From contig JAPWHF010000004.1 of the NCBI GenBank assembly GCA_027214125.1, positions 1-64,000 of the forward strand: a stretch of DNA of 64,000 bases, in the 5' to 3' direction. Below, in pieces: positions 228-60,418 of this stretch. The notes under the pieces were generated by a model that searched no databases, was not told the origin of the DNA, and saw nothing but the letters and a program-made list of their open reading frames with translations. The position numbers and the translations under genes were made by a program. The stretch is from Zoogloeaceae bacterium G21618-S1. Its GTDB lineage: Bacteria > Pseudomonadota > Gammaproteobacteria > Burkholderiales > Rhodocyclaceae. How positions within the stretch are numbered: the first letter of the stretch is position 1; each line of letters opens with the position of its first letter.

Positions 228-1691
228 CTAAACAGCGATGTAGGTGCGTACTTCAAACTCGTGCCCACGCCATACACTGCCCAAGGGTTTGAGTTTTTGA
301 ATGACGCCATCTTCGGCAACAAACAGCGGAGCGCCAGGGCGCAGTGCGCCAGCAGGCGCTGCCACTCTCAAGTGAGAACCGCGTCGCAAGGGGTCGCACA
401 GAAGAACATCGAGCGGAGAGCGCCCATCGTCCGCCTTGACCGCACGGGGATCGAGCGCAAAGGTTTCCACGCCGACCAAGGCTCGGGTGATGTCGCCCCG
501 CTGGATTCGTCTCACCAGACCGAGTCGCCACGTTACGGCATCTTCAGATCGCATCGCTATTAGCTCACCGATGCGAGGCATGCCATATTCGGAAACTGGC
601 GCGACGGCCCCCAAACCACCAACGCTGACATCTTGCAAGTCCCAGGACATCAATGCCACCGCCTCGCCGCCAGAGATTACCTGACTAAAGGAGTCGAAGC
701 CCCTGACAGCCGACAGCTTTCCGCCCATAAGGTGGCGGCGATGGCGTCGCGCCGACGGCGTGTCATACCAAGTGCGCCGAAAATGGCGGATACACGCCGC
801 AATGTGGTCTTTAGCGCCAGGCCCAGCGCCCAGACCGCCGGGCACGACACCTTTTCCGAGCATCACTTCCAACTCGGAAAACACTCGCTCTGCCAAAAGG
901 GGGGAGAAATACCACGTGGGCTCACCTTCCGAGACGGCCTTGATGAGGCGTCGCGGCTCACCGCCCAGCATTGGCGACACAATAAAACGAGCGCCTTCGA
1001 CTGGCCCTGCCCCAAGATGAAGCGCGGGCAGCAGGTGCTGGATCAACCGATCGGCTACGTCGATGTGCTCGACGGGCATTTGCTCAAGGCCCGAACACTG
1101 CAAAGCCACAGCGCGCAGGTACTCGCGGTAGGTCGAGGTTTCGGTGTCTCTCCCCTGACGCAGGCGGACCGGCAACATCAGGCGGCCGTCTTCCTCAGCC
1201 TCAAGAAATACCGAGCCCATCTGTTGCCACAAGCCGCTATCGAACGGGCCGTAGAGCAAATGCGCCCACTTCAGGCGACTTGCCTCTGCACGCATCAGTC
1301 GCGCGGCCATCTCGGCAGCGACACTTGAAGAAATTGCTTCCGAATAGCGCTGTCGCTGCAAAACGGATTGGCCCACCCTGGCAATCGCCCGGAACGCACG
1401 TGTCGACGCAGCGTGAAGCACCGCTCCACGCGCAGAACCCAATACGCTAGATTGAACAAAGCCCTGCGCGGCCTGCCGAATGACCGCCTGCGCGGATTCG
1501 TCAAACTGGCGCAACGCGGACACAAGTTGATCCAGCGGCCATTCAGCACCATCAAGCATTAACTCGGCGCCCGCGGCGATTTCGTCGAGCGCCAGACCCG
1601 GTTCATTCGTCGGCAGAGCGTCCAGACGCCAGCGGACTTCGTCCAGACGCTGAGACGATTCCGGTGAGGGAGTCGATGCATTCAGGAACAT
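228..1691 (-). CDS. PilZ-like domain protein with long uncharacterised N-terminal region
   Basis: The product is 487 residues. The first 300 or so residues are largely helical, and I do not recognise a family in them. The C-terminal part has the hallmarks of a PilZ cyclic-di-GMP receptor: RRHRR at 315-319, which gives an RxxxR pattern, then after about 34 residues DVSVGG at 354-359, which matches the D/NxSxxG motif, then strands ending in GLVRRIQ and LVGVETFA around 391-412. No signal peptide or membrane segment is visible. The gene stands alone, divergent from thyA and facing the stable-RNA promoter at the left edge. The PilZ assignment is motif-based and the role is unknown. Several other cyclic-di-GMP enzymes lie in this window, so binding of that nucleotide is plausible but untested. 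Confidence 0.6.
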   Translation of the reverse strand: MFLNASTPSPESSQRLDEVRWRLDALPTNEPGLALDEIAAGAELMLDGAEWPLDQLVSALRQFDESAQAVIRQAAQGFVQSSVLGSARGAVLHAASTRAFRAIARVGQSVLQRQRYSEAISSSVAAEMAARLMRAEASRLKWAHLLYGPFDSGLWQQMGSVFLEAEEDGRLMLPVRLRQGRDTETSTYREYLRAVALQCSGLEQMPVEHIDVADRLIQHLLPALHLGAGPVEGARFIVSPMLGGEPRRLIKAVSEGEPTWYFSPLLAERVFSELEVMLGKGVVPGGLGAGPGAKDHIAACIRHFRRTWYDTPSARRHRRHLMGGKLSAVRGFDSFSQVISGGEAVALMSWDLQDVSVGGLGAVAPVSEYGMPRIGELIAMRSEDAVTWRLGLVRRIQRGDITRALVGVETFALDPRAVKADDGRSPLDVLLCDPLRRGSHLRVAAPAGALRPGAPLFVAEDGVIQKLKPLGSVWRGHEFEVRTYIAV

Positions 1692-53817: not shown

Positions 53818-56214
53818 ATGGGAAGACTAAAGCACCTCATTGAGCCAATCGCCTCTGCGATGGCGCCATACCAAGCCGATGCCCCGCTGGCGGCTCAGTT
53901 TCGCGCGCGTCAGATTCAGGCGGTTCTGCGTCTCACGCCACTCACCATGCTGGCCAATGTCCTCAACGCCCTGATCGTTGGCTGGACATTTCGCAATGAC
54001 CTCAACCCGCTGCTGCTCGTGGGCTGGACCTTGTTTGTACTGTACGCCGCAGGCACGGGCATTGACGCCTGGCTGCGGTGGCGACGCCATCGCACACCGA
54101 CGACCGCCTCCCCTCGCGCACTCACCCGCTCGGCCAAGCATGCGGCCTTGTTGGCCATTCTCTGGGGCACCGTCCCCCTGCTGATGATGCCGGAGGCCAA
54201 CCCGGACGCCCGCGTCCTGCTCACCGCCGTGGTCACCGGGATGATCTGCGCCGGCGGCTTCGCGCTGGCAACCATCCCCCAGGCCGCGCTGACCTATGTC
54301 GCCATTCTTGGCACGGCGACCGTCTTCGGCCTGATCCGCATGGACTTGCCGCAAGCCTACGAGATGGGCATGTTGCTGCTGGTCTACACGCTGATCGTCA
54401 TGGGCACCGTGATCTCCAGCGCCCGCACCTTCGGCGCACGCCTCATGGCCGAAGCCGAGGGCGAACACCAGCGACAGCTCATTGGCCTGCTGCTGAACGA
54501 CTTCGAAGAGAACGCCAGCGACTGGCTATGGGAAACCGACGCCGACGGCCGCCTCACCCATGTATCTCATCGCATGGCCACGGTGTTCGGTCGGAGTGTC
54601 GACGCCTTGATGGGACAACGCCTGCTGGCGCTGATTGCCCACTCACTCGATCGCGTTCCGCATGATGAACGCAAGGCTTACACCGACCTGTGCCGGCGCT
54701 TCAGCACGGGCAGCCCCTTCCGCGAAGCATTGATCCCCATCGTGCTCGACACCGAGACTCGCTGGTGGTCGCTCACTGCCAAACCACTGACGGATGCGAA
54801 CAACACACTGATCGGCTGGCGGGGTGTCGGCACGGATGTCACTCAGGCGCTCGCCGCCCAGCGCGAAGTCCAGCGAATGGCCCACTTCGATGGTCTCACC
54901 GGGCTATCCAACCGAAACCACTTCCACGAATCGCTCAGTCGCGTCGAAGAAAACGCAGCCGACAGCAGCACCGGCGCACTGTTGCTATGCCTCGACCTCG
55001 ACAACTTCAAGGCCATCAATGATTCCTATGGGCACACCTTTGGCGACGGCCTGCTGCGCGTTATCGCCCAGCGACTGCTTGGCCGAACCCGTCGCACCGA
55101 CGTGGTGGCACGCCTGGGCGGAGACGAGTTCGCCATCATTCGATGGGGCCAGGTCACGCCAGAGGACGCCGAGGAGCTCGCATCCCGCATCATCACTTCA
55201 CTGTCCGACCCCTGCGAGGTTGACGGCATCCGGGTCAAGATCGGCACCAGCGTCGGCATCGCCATGGCCCCCAAGGATGGTCAAAGTGGTGATCAGCTCC
55301 TGAAAAACGCCGACATCGCCCTATATGCCGCAAAGTTCGACGGCAAGGGGCGGTTCCGATTTTTTGACTACGACATGGACACCCGAGCCCGGCGCCGCCT
55401 GTTTCTCGAGCATGAACTGCGCGGCGCCTTGCAACGCAGCGAGTTTTACCTCGCCTATCAGCCGATCTTTTCACTCGCCACGGGCCGCATCTGCGGCTGC
55501 GAGGCCTTGCTCCGGTGGCGCCACCCCCGCCTGGGGTTAATCGACACGCAAGAGTGCATCTCCGTGGCCGAAGACTCGGGCCAGATCGAAAGCATCGGTG
55601 AATGGGTGCTCAACGCCGCCATTCGTGACGCCGCCGAGTGGCCAGACAGCGTGCGCCTGTCAGTCAATCTGTCACTCGCCCAATTCATCAATCCCGCGCT
55701 GTGCGACACCATCTTGAAACTCCTCGCCACGCACGGCCTGCCGGCCAATCGCCTTGAGCTGGAACTAACCGAATCCATCTTCCTGCGCGACACAACCGAC
55801 ACCGAAGGCCACCTGCGCGCGCTGCGCGCCGCGGGGATCCGGATCGCGCTGGATGACTTTGGCACGGGTTATTCCTCCCTCGCCTATTTGCGCACCCTGC
55901 CGCTGGACCGCATCAAGATAGATCGGGCCTTCGTGCAGGCCATCATCGCGCACCCGGAAACGGCCGCCATCGTCCGGGCCATTATCGCCATCGCGCAAGC
56001 ACTGCATATGGACACCTGTGCCGAAGGTATCGAAGACAGCGCCCAACTGGCCCTGCTCCGCAGCGAAGGCTGCGATACGGTACAAGGCTTTGCTCTGGCC
56101 GAACCGATGACACAGTCGGCACTGGCCGCCTTTCTGGCCGGCAACGTCACCGTACCGGCGCTGGCGCAATCATCCCGCAATGTCGGAGAGAGGAAGATCA
56201 ACCGCCCATACTAG
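53818..56214 (+). CDS. Membrane PAS-GGDEF-EAL protein
   Basis: The product is 798 residues. Five or so hydrophobic segments within residues 35-205 form a membrane sensor of MASE-like appearance, not assigned to a named family. A PAS domain (about 230-350; DWLWETDADGRLTHVS) follows. GGDEF is intact at 434-438 (LGGDEF). EAL is intact at 562-564 (CEALLRW), with ALDDFGTGYSS and an EGIED glutamate. Both cyclic-di-GMP synthesis and breakdown are therefore possible. The ribosome binding site is weak (AAGGA 13 bases upstream). It begins a three-gene block with an HD-GYP regulator and a hybrid kinase. Confidence 0.9.
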   Translation: MGRLKHLIEPIASAMAPYQADAPLAAQFRARQIQAVLRLTPLTMLANVLNALIVGWTFRNDLNPLLLVGWTLFVLYAAGTGIDAWLRWRRHRTPTTASPRALTRSAKHAALLAILWGTVPLLMMPEANPDARVLLTAVVTGMICAGGFALATIPQAALTYVAILGTATVFGLIRMDLPQAYEMGMLLLVYTLIVMGTVISSARTFGARLMAEAEGEHQRQLIGLLLNDFEENASDWLWETDADGRLTHVSHRMATVFGRSVDALMGQRLLALIAHSLDRVPHDERKAYTDLCRRFSTGSPFREALIPIVLDTETRWWSLTAKPLTDANNTLIGWRGVGTDVTQALAAQREVQRMAHFDGLTGLSNRNHFHESLSRVEENAADSSTGALLLCLDLDNFKAINDSYGHTFGDGLLRVIAQRLLGRTRRTDVVARLGGDEFAIIRWGQVTPEDAEELASRIITSLSDPCEVDGIRVKIGTSVGIAMAPKDGQSGDQLLKNADIALYAAKFDGKGRFRFFDYDMDTRARRRLFLEHELRGALQRSEFYLAYQPIFSLATGRICGCEALLRWRHPRLGLIDTQECISVAEDSGQIESIGEWVLNAAIRDAAEWPDSVRLSVNLSLAQFINPALCDTILKLLATHGLPANRLELELTESIFLRDTTDTEGHLRALRAAGIRIALDDFGTGYSSLAYLRTLPLDRIKIDRAFVQAIIAHPETAAIVRAIIAIAQALHMDTCAEGIEDSAQLALLRSEGCDTVQGFALAEPMTQSALAAFLAGNVTVPALAQSSRNVGERKINRPY

Positions 56215-56287
56215 GCACAATGTTCTCAACTTGACCTGCCTGTGTGCCGATATGACTTTGACGCCATCGCGCGGAACGGCCAAAACC

Positions 56288-57337
56288 ATGAAAATTGTCA
56301 TTATCGACGACACCCCACTGAATCTCACCTTGATGCAAGCCTTGGTTGGCAAGCTCCCCGACTGCGAACCAGTACCCTTCATCGATCCGCAAGCGGGGCT
56401 CACGTGGTGTCAGGCCAACGAACCCGACCTCATCGTGGTCGACTACATGATGCCCGGACTGGACGGCGTCGAATTCATTCGCCGCCTTCGCGCCACGCCC
56501 AACCGCGACGACGTCCCCATCCTGATGGTCACGGCCGACCACGAACGCCAGACCCGCTACGACGCACTTCAGTCCGGCGCGACCGACTTTCTCAACAAAC
56601 CGGTAGACCGCAACGAATTCCAGCCACGCGTCCACAACATGCTGTCCTTGAGGCGCGCCCACCTCGCAACTCGCGCCCGAGCCCAATCACTGGAAGCGGA
56701 AATCGCCGACGCCACCGCCCAGATCCACGAACGCGAGCAGGAAACCGTCACCCGTCTGGCCCGCGCCGCTGAATTCCGCGACCCCGAAACGGGCGCCCAC
56801 ATTCTGCGCATGGCGCACTACTCGGCGCTCATTGCCCGCCAGCTCGGCAAAGATGAAGCCTACTCAGACCTTCTCCTGCATGCCGCCCCGATGCACGATG
56901 TCGGCAAGCTCGGCATTCCGGATCACATCCTGATGAAGCCCGGACGCTTGACCGTTGATGAATTCGAGCAAATGAAGCGCCACCCGATAATCGGTCACGA
57001 CATCCTCAAAGACTCGACCTCACCTGTCATCCAGACCGCCGCCGTCATTGCCCTGACACACCACGAAAAATTCGACGGCTCGGGCTACCCCTTCGGTACC
57101 GCCGGGGAAGCCATACCGCTGGAAGGGCGCATCGTGGCCGTCGCCGACGTCTTCGACGCGCTCACCTCGGCCCGCCCCTACAAACCCGCCTGGTCACTCG
57201 ACGACGCCACGGCTTTTCTGCGCGAGGGCCGCGGCCAGCATTTCGATGCCATCTGCGTCGACGCCATGCTCGATCGATGGTCGGACGTGCTCGATATCCG
57301 ACAGCGTTTCCAGGACGAATCGCCGACCGCGCTATAG
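56288..57337 (+). CDS. Response regulator REC-HD-GYP phosphodiesterase
   Basis: The product is 349 residues from the ATG at 56288. The receiver domain has DD at 7-8, phosphoacceptor D52 (VVDYMMP) and K104 in NKPVD. A coiled-coil linker (about 120-158) leads to the HD-GYP domain, with HDVGK (HD at 203-204) and HHEKFDGSGYPFG (GYP at 266-268). This domain hydrolyses cyclic-di-GMP to GMP or pGpG using a di-iron-type centre. It lies 73 bases after a GGDEF-EAL gene and 30 bases before a hybrid kinase with an HPt domain, a likely phosphoryl donor. Confidence 0.94.
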   Translation: MKIVIIDDTPLNLTLMQALVGKLPDCEPVPFIDPQAGLTWCQANEPDLIVVDYMMPGLDGVEFIRRLRATPNRDDVPILMVTADHERQTRYDALQSGATDFLNKPVDRNEFQPRVHNMLSLRRAHLATRARAQSLEAEIADATAQIHEREQETVTRLARAAEFRDPETGAHILRMAHYSALIARQLGKDEAYSDLLLHAAPMHDVGKLGIPDHILMKPGRLTVDEFEQMKRHPIIGHDILKDSTSPVIQTAAVIALTHHEKFDGSGYPFGTAGEAIPLEGRIVAVADVFDALTSARPYKPAWSLDDATAFLREGRGQHFDAICVDAMLDRWSDVLDIRQRFQDESPTAL

Positions 57338-57367
57338 CCCCCGGCCCCCAAGCACCCGATACCGTTG

Positions 57368-60300
57368 ATGCTCGCAAACACATCTCGCCTCTTCCGTCTG
57401 CGCTCGCTCAAGCACCGCCTGCTGCTGCTCACAAGCGTCTTGCTATGTGTGGCGATCGCGCTCACCACCGCGCTCGATCACGCACGCGAAACCCGCGCCA
57501 CAGACGCCCGCCAGCGCGCTCAGGCGCAAGCGCTTACCGCACACATCGCCACCCTGACAGCCGCTGGCGTGGCAGCGAACGACACCGGCAGCCTCAACCG
57601 AACGCTGGAAGCCTTTGACAGCTTTCCGCACATCCAGCGGCTGGTCGTCACCGACCGGCAAGACCAGGTCCTTGCCGCCGTCAGCCGCACGCCCCGCGGC
57701 GCACTCGCACCCGATGATCGCTCGCAGATCGGCGCCACCTACATCAGCCAATCACGCGACTTACGCGCCCCGATTGGTCCGATTGCGCCCACCGGCTGGG
57801 TCCATCTGAGCCTCGACCCCTCCCCAACACCGCCGTTCTTCACTGTCAGCACCGCCCTCCTGATGGGACTGATGTTGGTCGCTGCGGCACTTGCCGTTGT
57901 CTGGATTCTGCGCCGCCCGATCGAAGATCTCGCGCACGCTGAGGCCATCGCCACCGCATTACCCGCCGGCACACTCATTCCGCCACCGCCCGACGGCGTC
58001 CTGCGCGAAAACCAGCCGCTCACCGAGGCCCTGCAGCACGCCGCCGAGCGCGTCCAGCGGGCCCAGCACAATCTCTCCGCCAGCCATACCCGCATGCGTG
58101 CCATCACCGAGGCGGCACTCGACAGCATCATCACCATCGATGCACACGGCTGCGTCGTCGACTTCAATCCCGCCGCCGAAGCCTGTTTTGGCCATCGCCG
58201 CGAAGACACCCTCGGCCACCCCATCGCCGAACTGATCATCCCCCCCGACCAGCGCGAAGCCCACAACCGGGGCATGGCCCATTACCTGGCCACCGGCGAA
58301 GGCCCGGTGCTATCACGCCAGATCGAAGTCCTGGCGATGCGCAAAAACGGCGACACCTTCCCCGCCGAGCTGGCGATTGTCCCCATCGACCTGAATGGCG
58401 CACCGGGCTTCACCGCCTATTTGCGTGATATCAGCGAACGCAAGCAATCCGAACAGGCCTTGCAAGAAGCCAAATCACAGGCCGAAGCGGCCAATCAGGC
58501 CAAGAGCGACTTTCTGGCCAACATGAGCCATGAAATCCGCACCCCGATGAATGCCATCATCGGCATGACCGACCTGGCCCTTGAAACCCGTCTCGACGAC
58601 GAACAGCGCGAATACCTCACTCTGTCGCGCGACGCCGCCGACGCGCTGCTCAGTCTCGTCAATGACCTGCTCGACTACTCCAAGATCGCCACAGGCAAGC
58701 TCGACTTTGAACACATCAGCTTCGGCTTGCGCGACTGTATTGCCCTCAGTCACCGCACCCTCAAGGACGCCGCCGAGCGCAAGCAGCTGAGCTTCACCTA
58801 CCATGTCGCCCCGACCGTTCCCGACCACCTCGTCGGCGACCCGCATCGCCTGCGGCAAGTGCTCATCAACCTGATTGGCAACGCCCTCAAATTTACCGAG
58901 AGCGGACACATCACGATCCATGTGGCGCTGACCGAAAGCTGTGCCGACAGCACAGAGCTCAAGTTCTCGGTCGAAGACAGCGGTATCGGTATCGCCAAAG
59001 ACAAACAACAGCTCATCTTCGACGCCTTCTCCCAGGCCGACACGTCGTCCACCCGGCGCTTTGGCGGCACCGGTCTGGGTCTGACCATCTGCTCGCGACT
59101 GATCGACAGCATGCAGGGAAGGCTGTGGGTCGACAGCGAGCCCGGCAAGGGCAGCAGTTTCCATTTCACCGCCCGCTTCGAGCGCGCCAGCGCGCCCACC
59201 GTCCCCATCACACGCCCAGCCGAGACCGACCTGGGCAGCTTGCGCATTCTGGTGATCGCCGGCAATGAAGCCAGCCGCAGTCACCTCACCGGCATGATCG
59301 AAAGCTGGAACATGTTGTGCGACACCTGCGCCAGCGGTGCCGAAGCGCTCGCCGGCTTCAGCGGCGACGGGCCGGAGGTGCGCTACCACGCCATCGTTGC
59401 CGACACCGATCTGGGCGACATGAGCGCCTTCCGCTTCTTCGAACGGCTCAACACCCACGCGCTGACGCACCCGCCGATCCGGTTGATGACCGCCAACGCA
59501 GGCCAACGTGGCGACGCCGCCCGCTGCCGCTCGCTCGGCATCCAGGCCTACCTGAGCCGCCCGATCGAACCCTCCGACCTGCTTGACGCCATCTTGCTGG
59601 CCATCGGCGCCGACGGTATCGGGCCGCTGATTACCCGGCACAGTCTGCGCGAGCAGCGTCGCCGCCTGAATGTGTTGCTCGCCGAGGATAACAAGGTCAA
59701 CCAGATGCTCGCGCTGCGTCTACTCGAAAAGCTGGGGCATGTCACTCATGTCGTCAACAACGGCCTGGAGGCGCTTTCGGCCTGCGAAAGCACCCACTTC
59801 GACGTCATCTTGATGGACGTTCAAATGCCCGAAATGGGCGGTTTCGAGGCCACCGCCAGACTGCGCGAGCGCGAAGCCGGAACAGGCCGCTACACGCCAA
59901 TCATCGCCATGACCGCGCATGCCATGCCCGGTGATCGCGAGCGTTGCCTGGCCGCTGGCATGGACGACTATGTCGCCAAACCGGTTCAGCCGACCTCACT
60001 GGCTGCGGCGCTGGCCGCGATCGTCAGCGGTGACCAACGCGTGACCCATCGCGAAGCGGCCGCCGCCGTCACAAGCCGCCCGCTCACCGCATTTGACCAA
60101 GACACGCTGCTGGCCAATCTGGGCGGCGATCACGAACTGATGACACAACTGGCCGCGCTCTATCTCGATGACGAAATCGCGCTGCGCGAATCGCTAACAG
60201 CCGCGTGCAACAGCGGCGACCTGCAAGCGATTCATTCCGCCGTGCATGGCTTGAAAGGGGCGATCGCCAACTTCTCGGCCGATAGCGCCATGGCTGCAGC

Positions 60301-60418
60301 CAGCGCGCTGGAGAGCGTCTGCCGCAACGGTGAATCCGAGCAACTCGACCAAGCCATCACGCAGTTCAACATCGAGCTCGACCGCTTTGCCGAGGCCCTG
60401 CGCAGCGTGGCTGCCTGA
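57368..60418 (+). CDS. Tripartite hybrid sensor kinase PAS-HisKA-HATPase-REC-REC-HPt
   Basis: The product is 1016 residues from the ATG at 57368, which directly follows an in-frame TTG. Two membrane segments (about 18-38 and 160-180) enclose a periplasmic sensor of about 120 residues. A PAS domain (about 240-355) precedes HisKA with H388 in [12 protein letters not shown]. HATPase_c has [10 protein letters not shown] and GTGLGL. The first receiver (about 615-735) keeps an aspartate at 679 but has lost the acidic pair (IAGNEAS instead of DD) and has arginine for the conserved lysine (SRPIE), so it is probably inactive. The second receiver is canonical, with D817 in LMDVQMP. The HPt domain carries H960 in VHGLKGA. 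The order resembles BarA with an extra dead receiver. Confidence 0.93.

Follow-up and report, generated by a model that had tools for sequence, protein, structure and literature searches.

A predicted PilZ-type c-di-GMP effector, probably related to FimW and encoded beside thyA in a Zoogloeaceae bacterium

The 64,000-nucleotide stretch of DNA analysed here (the window) carries, close to its first position, a gene whose product had been described in an initial annotation as a PilZ-like domain joined to some 300 residues of unrecognised fold. This raises the question of whether the protein is a c-di-GMP effector of a new kind and, if so, on what it acts. The gene is the following:

228–1691, minus strand: gene for a protein of 487 aa (ATG at 1691, stop at 228–230)

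It adjoins thyA, the two being divergently oriented, and its GC content by codon position is 0.70/0.49/0.64. Since relatives 91% (Denitromonas ohlonensis) and 89% (D. halophila) identical over the full length were found, the ORF was considered a real gene. No membrane segment was detected in the 487-aa protein (the highest 19-residue hydropathy mean was only 1.09), which bears out the earlier statement that it has no membrane signature; as judged from its sequence, the product is a soluble, cytosolic protein. No Pfam or NCBIfam family scored above its cut-off in the window protein, in 30 relatives (alignment A1) or in 10 remote members; stray rows (DmsC, Med14, MerD, Imm21 and others) passed no cut-off and were taken as chance. 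PDB sequences were searched using the full-length protein, the complete profile and the individual domains as queries; neither PilZ nor any other credible match was recovered, and a viral structure library contained no match to the model with E < 0.001.

Predicted fold and ligand motif

Modelling of the whole protein with AlphaFold on alignment A1 (mean pLDDT 87.7, pTM 0.88) gave a helical domain followed by a PilZ barrel and a PilZ-like barrel, with strands running from residue 320 to 412 and six more from 416 to 486. The parts referred to below are these:

765–1664, minus strand: N-terminal, mostly helical domain, residues ~10–309 (AlphaFold, A1, BLASTP)
765–815, minus strand: helix 293–309, with H303 and W308, just ahead of the PilZ motif (AlphaFold, A1)
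456–758, minus strand: PilZ barrel, residues 312–412 (VIA-align Z 11.3; hhalign E 8.8e-6)
735–749, minus strand: R315-x-x-x-R319, both arginines invariant in 30 rows
615–632, minus strand: D354-x-S356-x-G358-G359, the [DN]xSxxG motif kept in most family rows
231–455, minus strand: six-strand barrel, residues 413–487, PilZ-like in shape, without RxxxR (AlphaFold, VIA-align, Foldseek)

The initial annotation had placed a PilZ-like domain at residues 310–412 and had made this dependent on structure prediction; a barrel was indeed predicted there, at 312–412. When compared by VIA-align, these residues matched PA0012 with c-di-GMP (8u0i; Z 11.3, 81 residues aligned, 2.2 A), and residues 314–415 matched VCA0042 with c-di-GMP (3kyg; Z 11.3, 87 residues aligned, 2.0 A). 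The features of the PilZ superfamily, i.e. RxxxR at the N-terminal edge of the barrel, [DN]xSxxG, and six strands, were all found, the last in the predicted model. Residues R315, R319, D354, S356 and G359 occupy the positions first assigned to them, so that the window protein retains the entire motif. Five columns of A1 (30 rows) are invariant, namely R315, R319, G359, W388 and G407. When 48 family rows were read by eye, all had RxxxR and 45 had [DN]xSxxG, the remaining three replacing the serine; in another set of 55 rows the motif region was present in 54, the exception being a short-ORF tandem copy at locus L061.

Profile comparison by hhalign was performed against 20 canonical PilZ domains from the order (A5). 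The PilZ region of the family aligned with these at a probability of 83 and an E of 8.8e-6, with DxSxxG in register, and the whole family profile did so at E 5.8e-5; the values for the C-terminal and N-terminal profiles were 0.35 and 0.66. Against a single YcgR-type sequence the PilZ region rendered a weak signal (probability 1.5). In the search of PDB sequences this region recovered no PilZ chain. The Pfam PilZ model (PF07238) produced no PilZ row for the window protein at E up to 10, and the window protein was absent from the matches listed when its genome was searched with that model; among the 30 relatives the model appeared in four (best E 0.016, below the curated cut-off). The structure prediction and the conservation of these residues support a six-strand PilZ barrel with an intact motif at 312–412, which makes the protein a candidate effector, as had been suggested, and very probably a (putative) c-di-GMP receptor.

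An alternative is that the PilZ fold has been kept as a scaffold and no longer binds c-di-GMP. The serine of DxSxxG is replaced in 3 of 48 family rows, and the pilus protein PilZ is reported in a review not to bind the nucleotide (PMC11656802), but with R315, R319 and G359 invariant in 30 rows, and every motif residue present in the window protein, such a loss appears unlikely.

The arrangement around the PilZ barrel differs from that of the known systems that resemble it. VCA0042 and YcgR-type proteins likewise combine a PilZ barrel (Z 11.3 to 3kyg) with the ligand motif, but in these a barrel precedes PilZ, whereas the window protein has a helical domain before it and a PilZ-like barrel after it; no YcgR-N-type barrel was seen ahead of PilZ, residues 10–309 being mostly helical in the model. 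PA0012 has the same barrel (Z 11.3 over 81 residues) but is a single-domain PilZ chain of 85 residues with no extra domains. When Foldseek was run with the full model, the top rows were to the PilZ part of cellulose synthase BcsA (E 4e-4), and 4hg6 gave a VIA-align Z of 10.2 over 88 residues; BcsA is, however, a membrane synthase, and the whole-chain alignment was poor (TM 0.17, rmsd 19).

The domain at residues 413–487 had been missed in the first reading. Modelled alone it reached a pLDDT of 93.1; its two best Foldseek rows were the PilZ proteins PlzA and VCA0042, with weak E values (0.087 and 0.25), and VIA-align returned a Z of 7.8 to VCA0042 (72 of 75 residues aligned) and of 8.8 to the phage protein xkdH. 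The predicted barrel is therefore described as PilZ-like in shape. Since hhalign detected no signal between it and the first barrel, and none between it and canonical PilZ (A5; E 0.35), a shared origin with PilZ is not claimed.

No Pfam or NCBIfam model covered the helical domain in the window protein, the 30 relatives or the 10 remote members, and in this respect the description of the N-terminal 300 residues as unrecognised stood. Residues Y147, P149, W155, P246, A267, G281, P284 and H303 are nearly invariant. Most of the VIA-align rows listed for residues 7–271, taken from the whole-protein model, were 14-3-3 proteins (Z 10.2–10.6), designed helical repeats reaching Z values of up to 11.8; a true 14-3-3-type scaffold that binds phosphopeptides was therefore considered. 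However, the best Foldseek E for 14-3-3 was 0.11. Since a Z below ~13 may, for helical folds, reflect a mere common arrangement, the 14-3-3 identity was not accepted, and we regard it as very improbable.

Probable relation to FimW

Twelve loci of other family members were inspected. Eight (L099–L106), which come from the same class but from different orders, encode a form of 582–616 aa. At six of these eight the family member (600–616 aa) lies directly upstream of a same-strand gene belonging to a single cluster of proteins of 689–717 aa. Pfam, run on four of the six cluster proteins, found GGDEF, EAL and PAS in all of them and a receiver domain below cut-off in two; one cluster protein, compared with PDB sequences, was FimX (E 1.3e-196 to 4j40). 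The remaining four loci, which encode forms of 501 and 508 aa, are not beside this fimX-like cluster. The homology between the window protein and the fimX-adjacent protein is clearest in the N-terminal helical domain (BLASTP E 4e-10, 24% identity over residues 2–247), and extends over the whole length when profile A1, built without the 600-aa forms, is used (hmm positions 14–504, E 3.4e-62). The 300 residues are therefore a conserved domain shared with a protein encoded directly upstream of fimX in Pseudomonas-type genomes, and the idea of a singular fusion had to be dropped, since helical domain and PilZ recur together across a widespread family.

In P. aeruginosa, FimW, a regulator of surface attachment, presumably corresponds to tag PA4958. 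According to a 2024 review, FimW is a PilZ effector that binds c-di-GMP and is encoded together with FimX, its exact function being called unknown (PMC11656802), and it is placed among the PilZ effectors of pilus assembly in a 2025 review (PMC12564702). Upon surface contact FimW reportedly accumulates at the pole in a c-di-GMP-dependent manner. PA4959 is given as FimX (PMC9355167), and PA4958 is listed among the Anr-regulated genes required for swarming (PMC8087004). Since the reviews have FimW encoded with FimX, the fimX-adjacent family member was taken to be FimW, an identification that we infer from gene order and those reviews.

Compared with FimW, as represented by this fimX-adjacent member, the window protein has a similar helical domain and the same RxxxR, with NxSPGG in the fimX-adjacent form, but it is shorter (487 aa vs 600–616 aa) and is encoded beside thyA instead of fimX, on a separate branch. 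In a quick tree of 57 rows the window protein grouped with its two Denitromonas relatives and a further member (L024) with an SH-aLRT of 99; this clade belongs to a group of 35 rows separate from the fimX-adjacent group, although several branches are long. Both the thyA neighbourhood and the position in a different clade, within the limits of a quick tree with long branches, speak against strict orthology with FimW. Among the 40 matches of the window genome to one GGDEF-EAL query, the best hits, considered as possible FimX orthologues, were 25% identical.

The preferred reading, to which we would assign a probability of roughly 0.7 on the basis of predicted fold and conservation, is that the gene product is a cytosolic protein, related to FimW, that acts as a c-di-GMP effector. 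What is known in it is the FimW-type PilZ effector; what is new is the separate, thyA-linked branch, of which the titles and abstract openings consulted in the literature contained no description. The model of this FimW relative also supplies residues that could be mutated in FimW itself.

Distribution of the family and association with pilB

With the window protein as the query, matches were found at the level of the order in at least 196 of 399 genomes, and at that of the class in at least 17 of 274; with profile A1 the figures were at least 131 of 200 for the order and at least 27 of 249 for the phylum. Up to seven family matches per genome were listed with this profile (i.e. at least seven), these tallies and copy numbers being lower bounds since 3 to 7 candidates were scored per genome. 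The window genome has at least four copies: the window gene (C44), C11, C33 and C64. The N-terminal profile alone found three of these four, C64 appearing only with the whole profile. Two proteins other than the family copies match PF07238 in this genome, which we take to be of the YcgR and PilZ types. As to the surroundings of the other copies, C64 (L087) lies beside a cation-efflux gene and an exonuclease/phosphatase-type gene, and C33 (L088) beside genes for a kinase resembling PhoR and for a class-II glutamine amidotransferase. C11 (L089) has a neighbour cluster in common with the 508-aa member in three genomes of Pseudomonas size (L107–L109), which may point to another ancient locus that has been conserved. 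Tandem pairs of family genes occur at several loci (L060, L061, L062, L065 and L067); the second copy at L061 is a short predicted ORF that lacks the PilZ motif.

No PF07238 match was found in 15 of 60 genomes of the order, and five of these 15 (G284, G303, G313, G319 and G331, the gene in the last being partial) have a family match among the matches listed. Counts of c-di-GMP effectors based on PF07238 would thus miss the family. In Azoarcus sp. CIB, for example, a genome search is reported to have yielded one putative PilZ protein, and the c-di-GMP cascade to be hard to predict (PMC7998248); family members could be the PilZ-type proteins missed there.

Co-occurrence with pilB was then considered, presence being defined as a full-score match to TIGR02538. 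Matches below the cut-off were treated as absences, which may overlook divergent PilB proteins, and the tests ignore kinship. In the phylum sample, pilB was present in 26 of 27 family-positive vs 78 of 222 family-negative genomes (P = 3e-10), the rows of the class accounting for 16 of 16 vs 31 of 51. In the order sample the corresponding values were 84 of 131 vs 26 of 69 (P = 5e-4), flagellin, used for comparison, rendering 97 of 131 vs 39 of 69 (P = 0.016). When the order genomes were split at a best E of 1e-100, a value chosen after inspection of the data, those with close relatives (E ≤ 1e-100) showed no association with pilB (30 of 61 vs 80 of 139; P = 0.28), while in the other 139 genomes pilB was present in 54 of 70 with remote members vs 26 of 69 without them (P = 3e-6). 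This contrast between remote and close members suggests that it is the FimW side of the family which is tied to the pilus, whereas the thyA-linked branch may act elsewhere.

The protein might nevertheless have a role equivalent to that of FimW, binding c-di-GMP and promoting type IV pilus extension. A full-score pilB is present in the window genome, the family as a whole accompanies pilB in the phylum sample and its class rows, and the other branch adjoins fimX. However, the association is lost among the close relatives in the order, no pilus gene adjoins the gene in the window, and any of the three other copies in the genome could hold this function. In addition, fimX is among the genes reported from a transposon screen for twitching, but apart from PA14_65580 no further tag beginning PA14_655 is mentioned in the main text of that study (PMC6321873), which counts mildly against a strong role in twitching. 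We therefore regard an equivalent role as possible, at odds clearly below even. The alternative that the protein is a c-di-GMP receptor whose partner lies outside the pilus, for example among the proteins of the envelope, of growth or of metabolism, is a serious possibility, if one still short of an even chance. It fits the split in the pilB result and the deep separation from the fimX-adjacent group, as well as the steady linkage of the branch, over 20 close-relative loci, with thyA (8/20), a mog-type molybdopterin-binding gene (14/20), darP (11/20) and pmbA (15/20), these neighbour clusters being named by Pfam from one member each. Linkage to such housekeeping genes names no partner, however, and PilB proteins too divergent to reach the curated cut-off may have been scored as absent.

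A broader proposal would be that of a large c-di-GMP receptor family hardly seen by the Pfam PilZ model, built from a 14-3-3-like scaffold and two PilZ-type barrels, present in several copies per genome and the sole PilZ-type receptor in some, the thyA-linked branch having its target outside the type IV pilus. Taken as a whole this is possible, though less likely than not.

Proposed switch and surroundings in the window

If the protein is a FimW-related effector, as preferred above, c-di-GMP would be clamped by R315/R319 and by D354-S356-G359. The ligand might then order the segment that follows helix 293–309, which is proposed as the switch segment. Such ordering could shift the position of the helical domain relative to the two barrels, so that the preceding helix packs differently, and this repacking might, by analogy with FimW, create or expose a site at which a partner could bind. 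For the thyA-linked branch, a candidate for that partner is the machinery of type IV pilus extension, put forward with some reserve.

The three GGDEF-EAL proteins and one HD protein claimed for the window were found by Pfam, the latter being a REC-HD protein (PF13487, HD_5). As support for an effector role they carry little weight, since the genome has the 40 matches to one GGDEF-EAL query mentioned above. Within 53818–60418, GGDEF-EAL, REC-HD and hybrid histidine kinase (REC and Hpt) genes adjoin one another on a single strand, likely forming a signalling cluster.

At the other end of the window, a TTGACA-16-TATAAT promoter sequence matching at 12 of 12 positions lies on the minus strand at 84–111 (one site found vs 0.5 expected in shuffles). 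It points away from the stop of the gene and towards the contig end. The contigs of both Denitromonas relatives (L049 and L050) end ~200 bp past the gene and carry a promoter sequence there that is nearly the same, and the site may mark where a ribosomal RNA operon, or another repeated element, begins.
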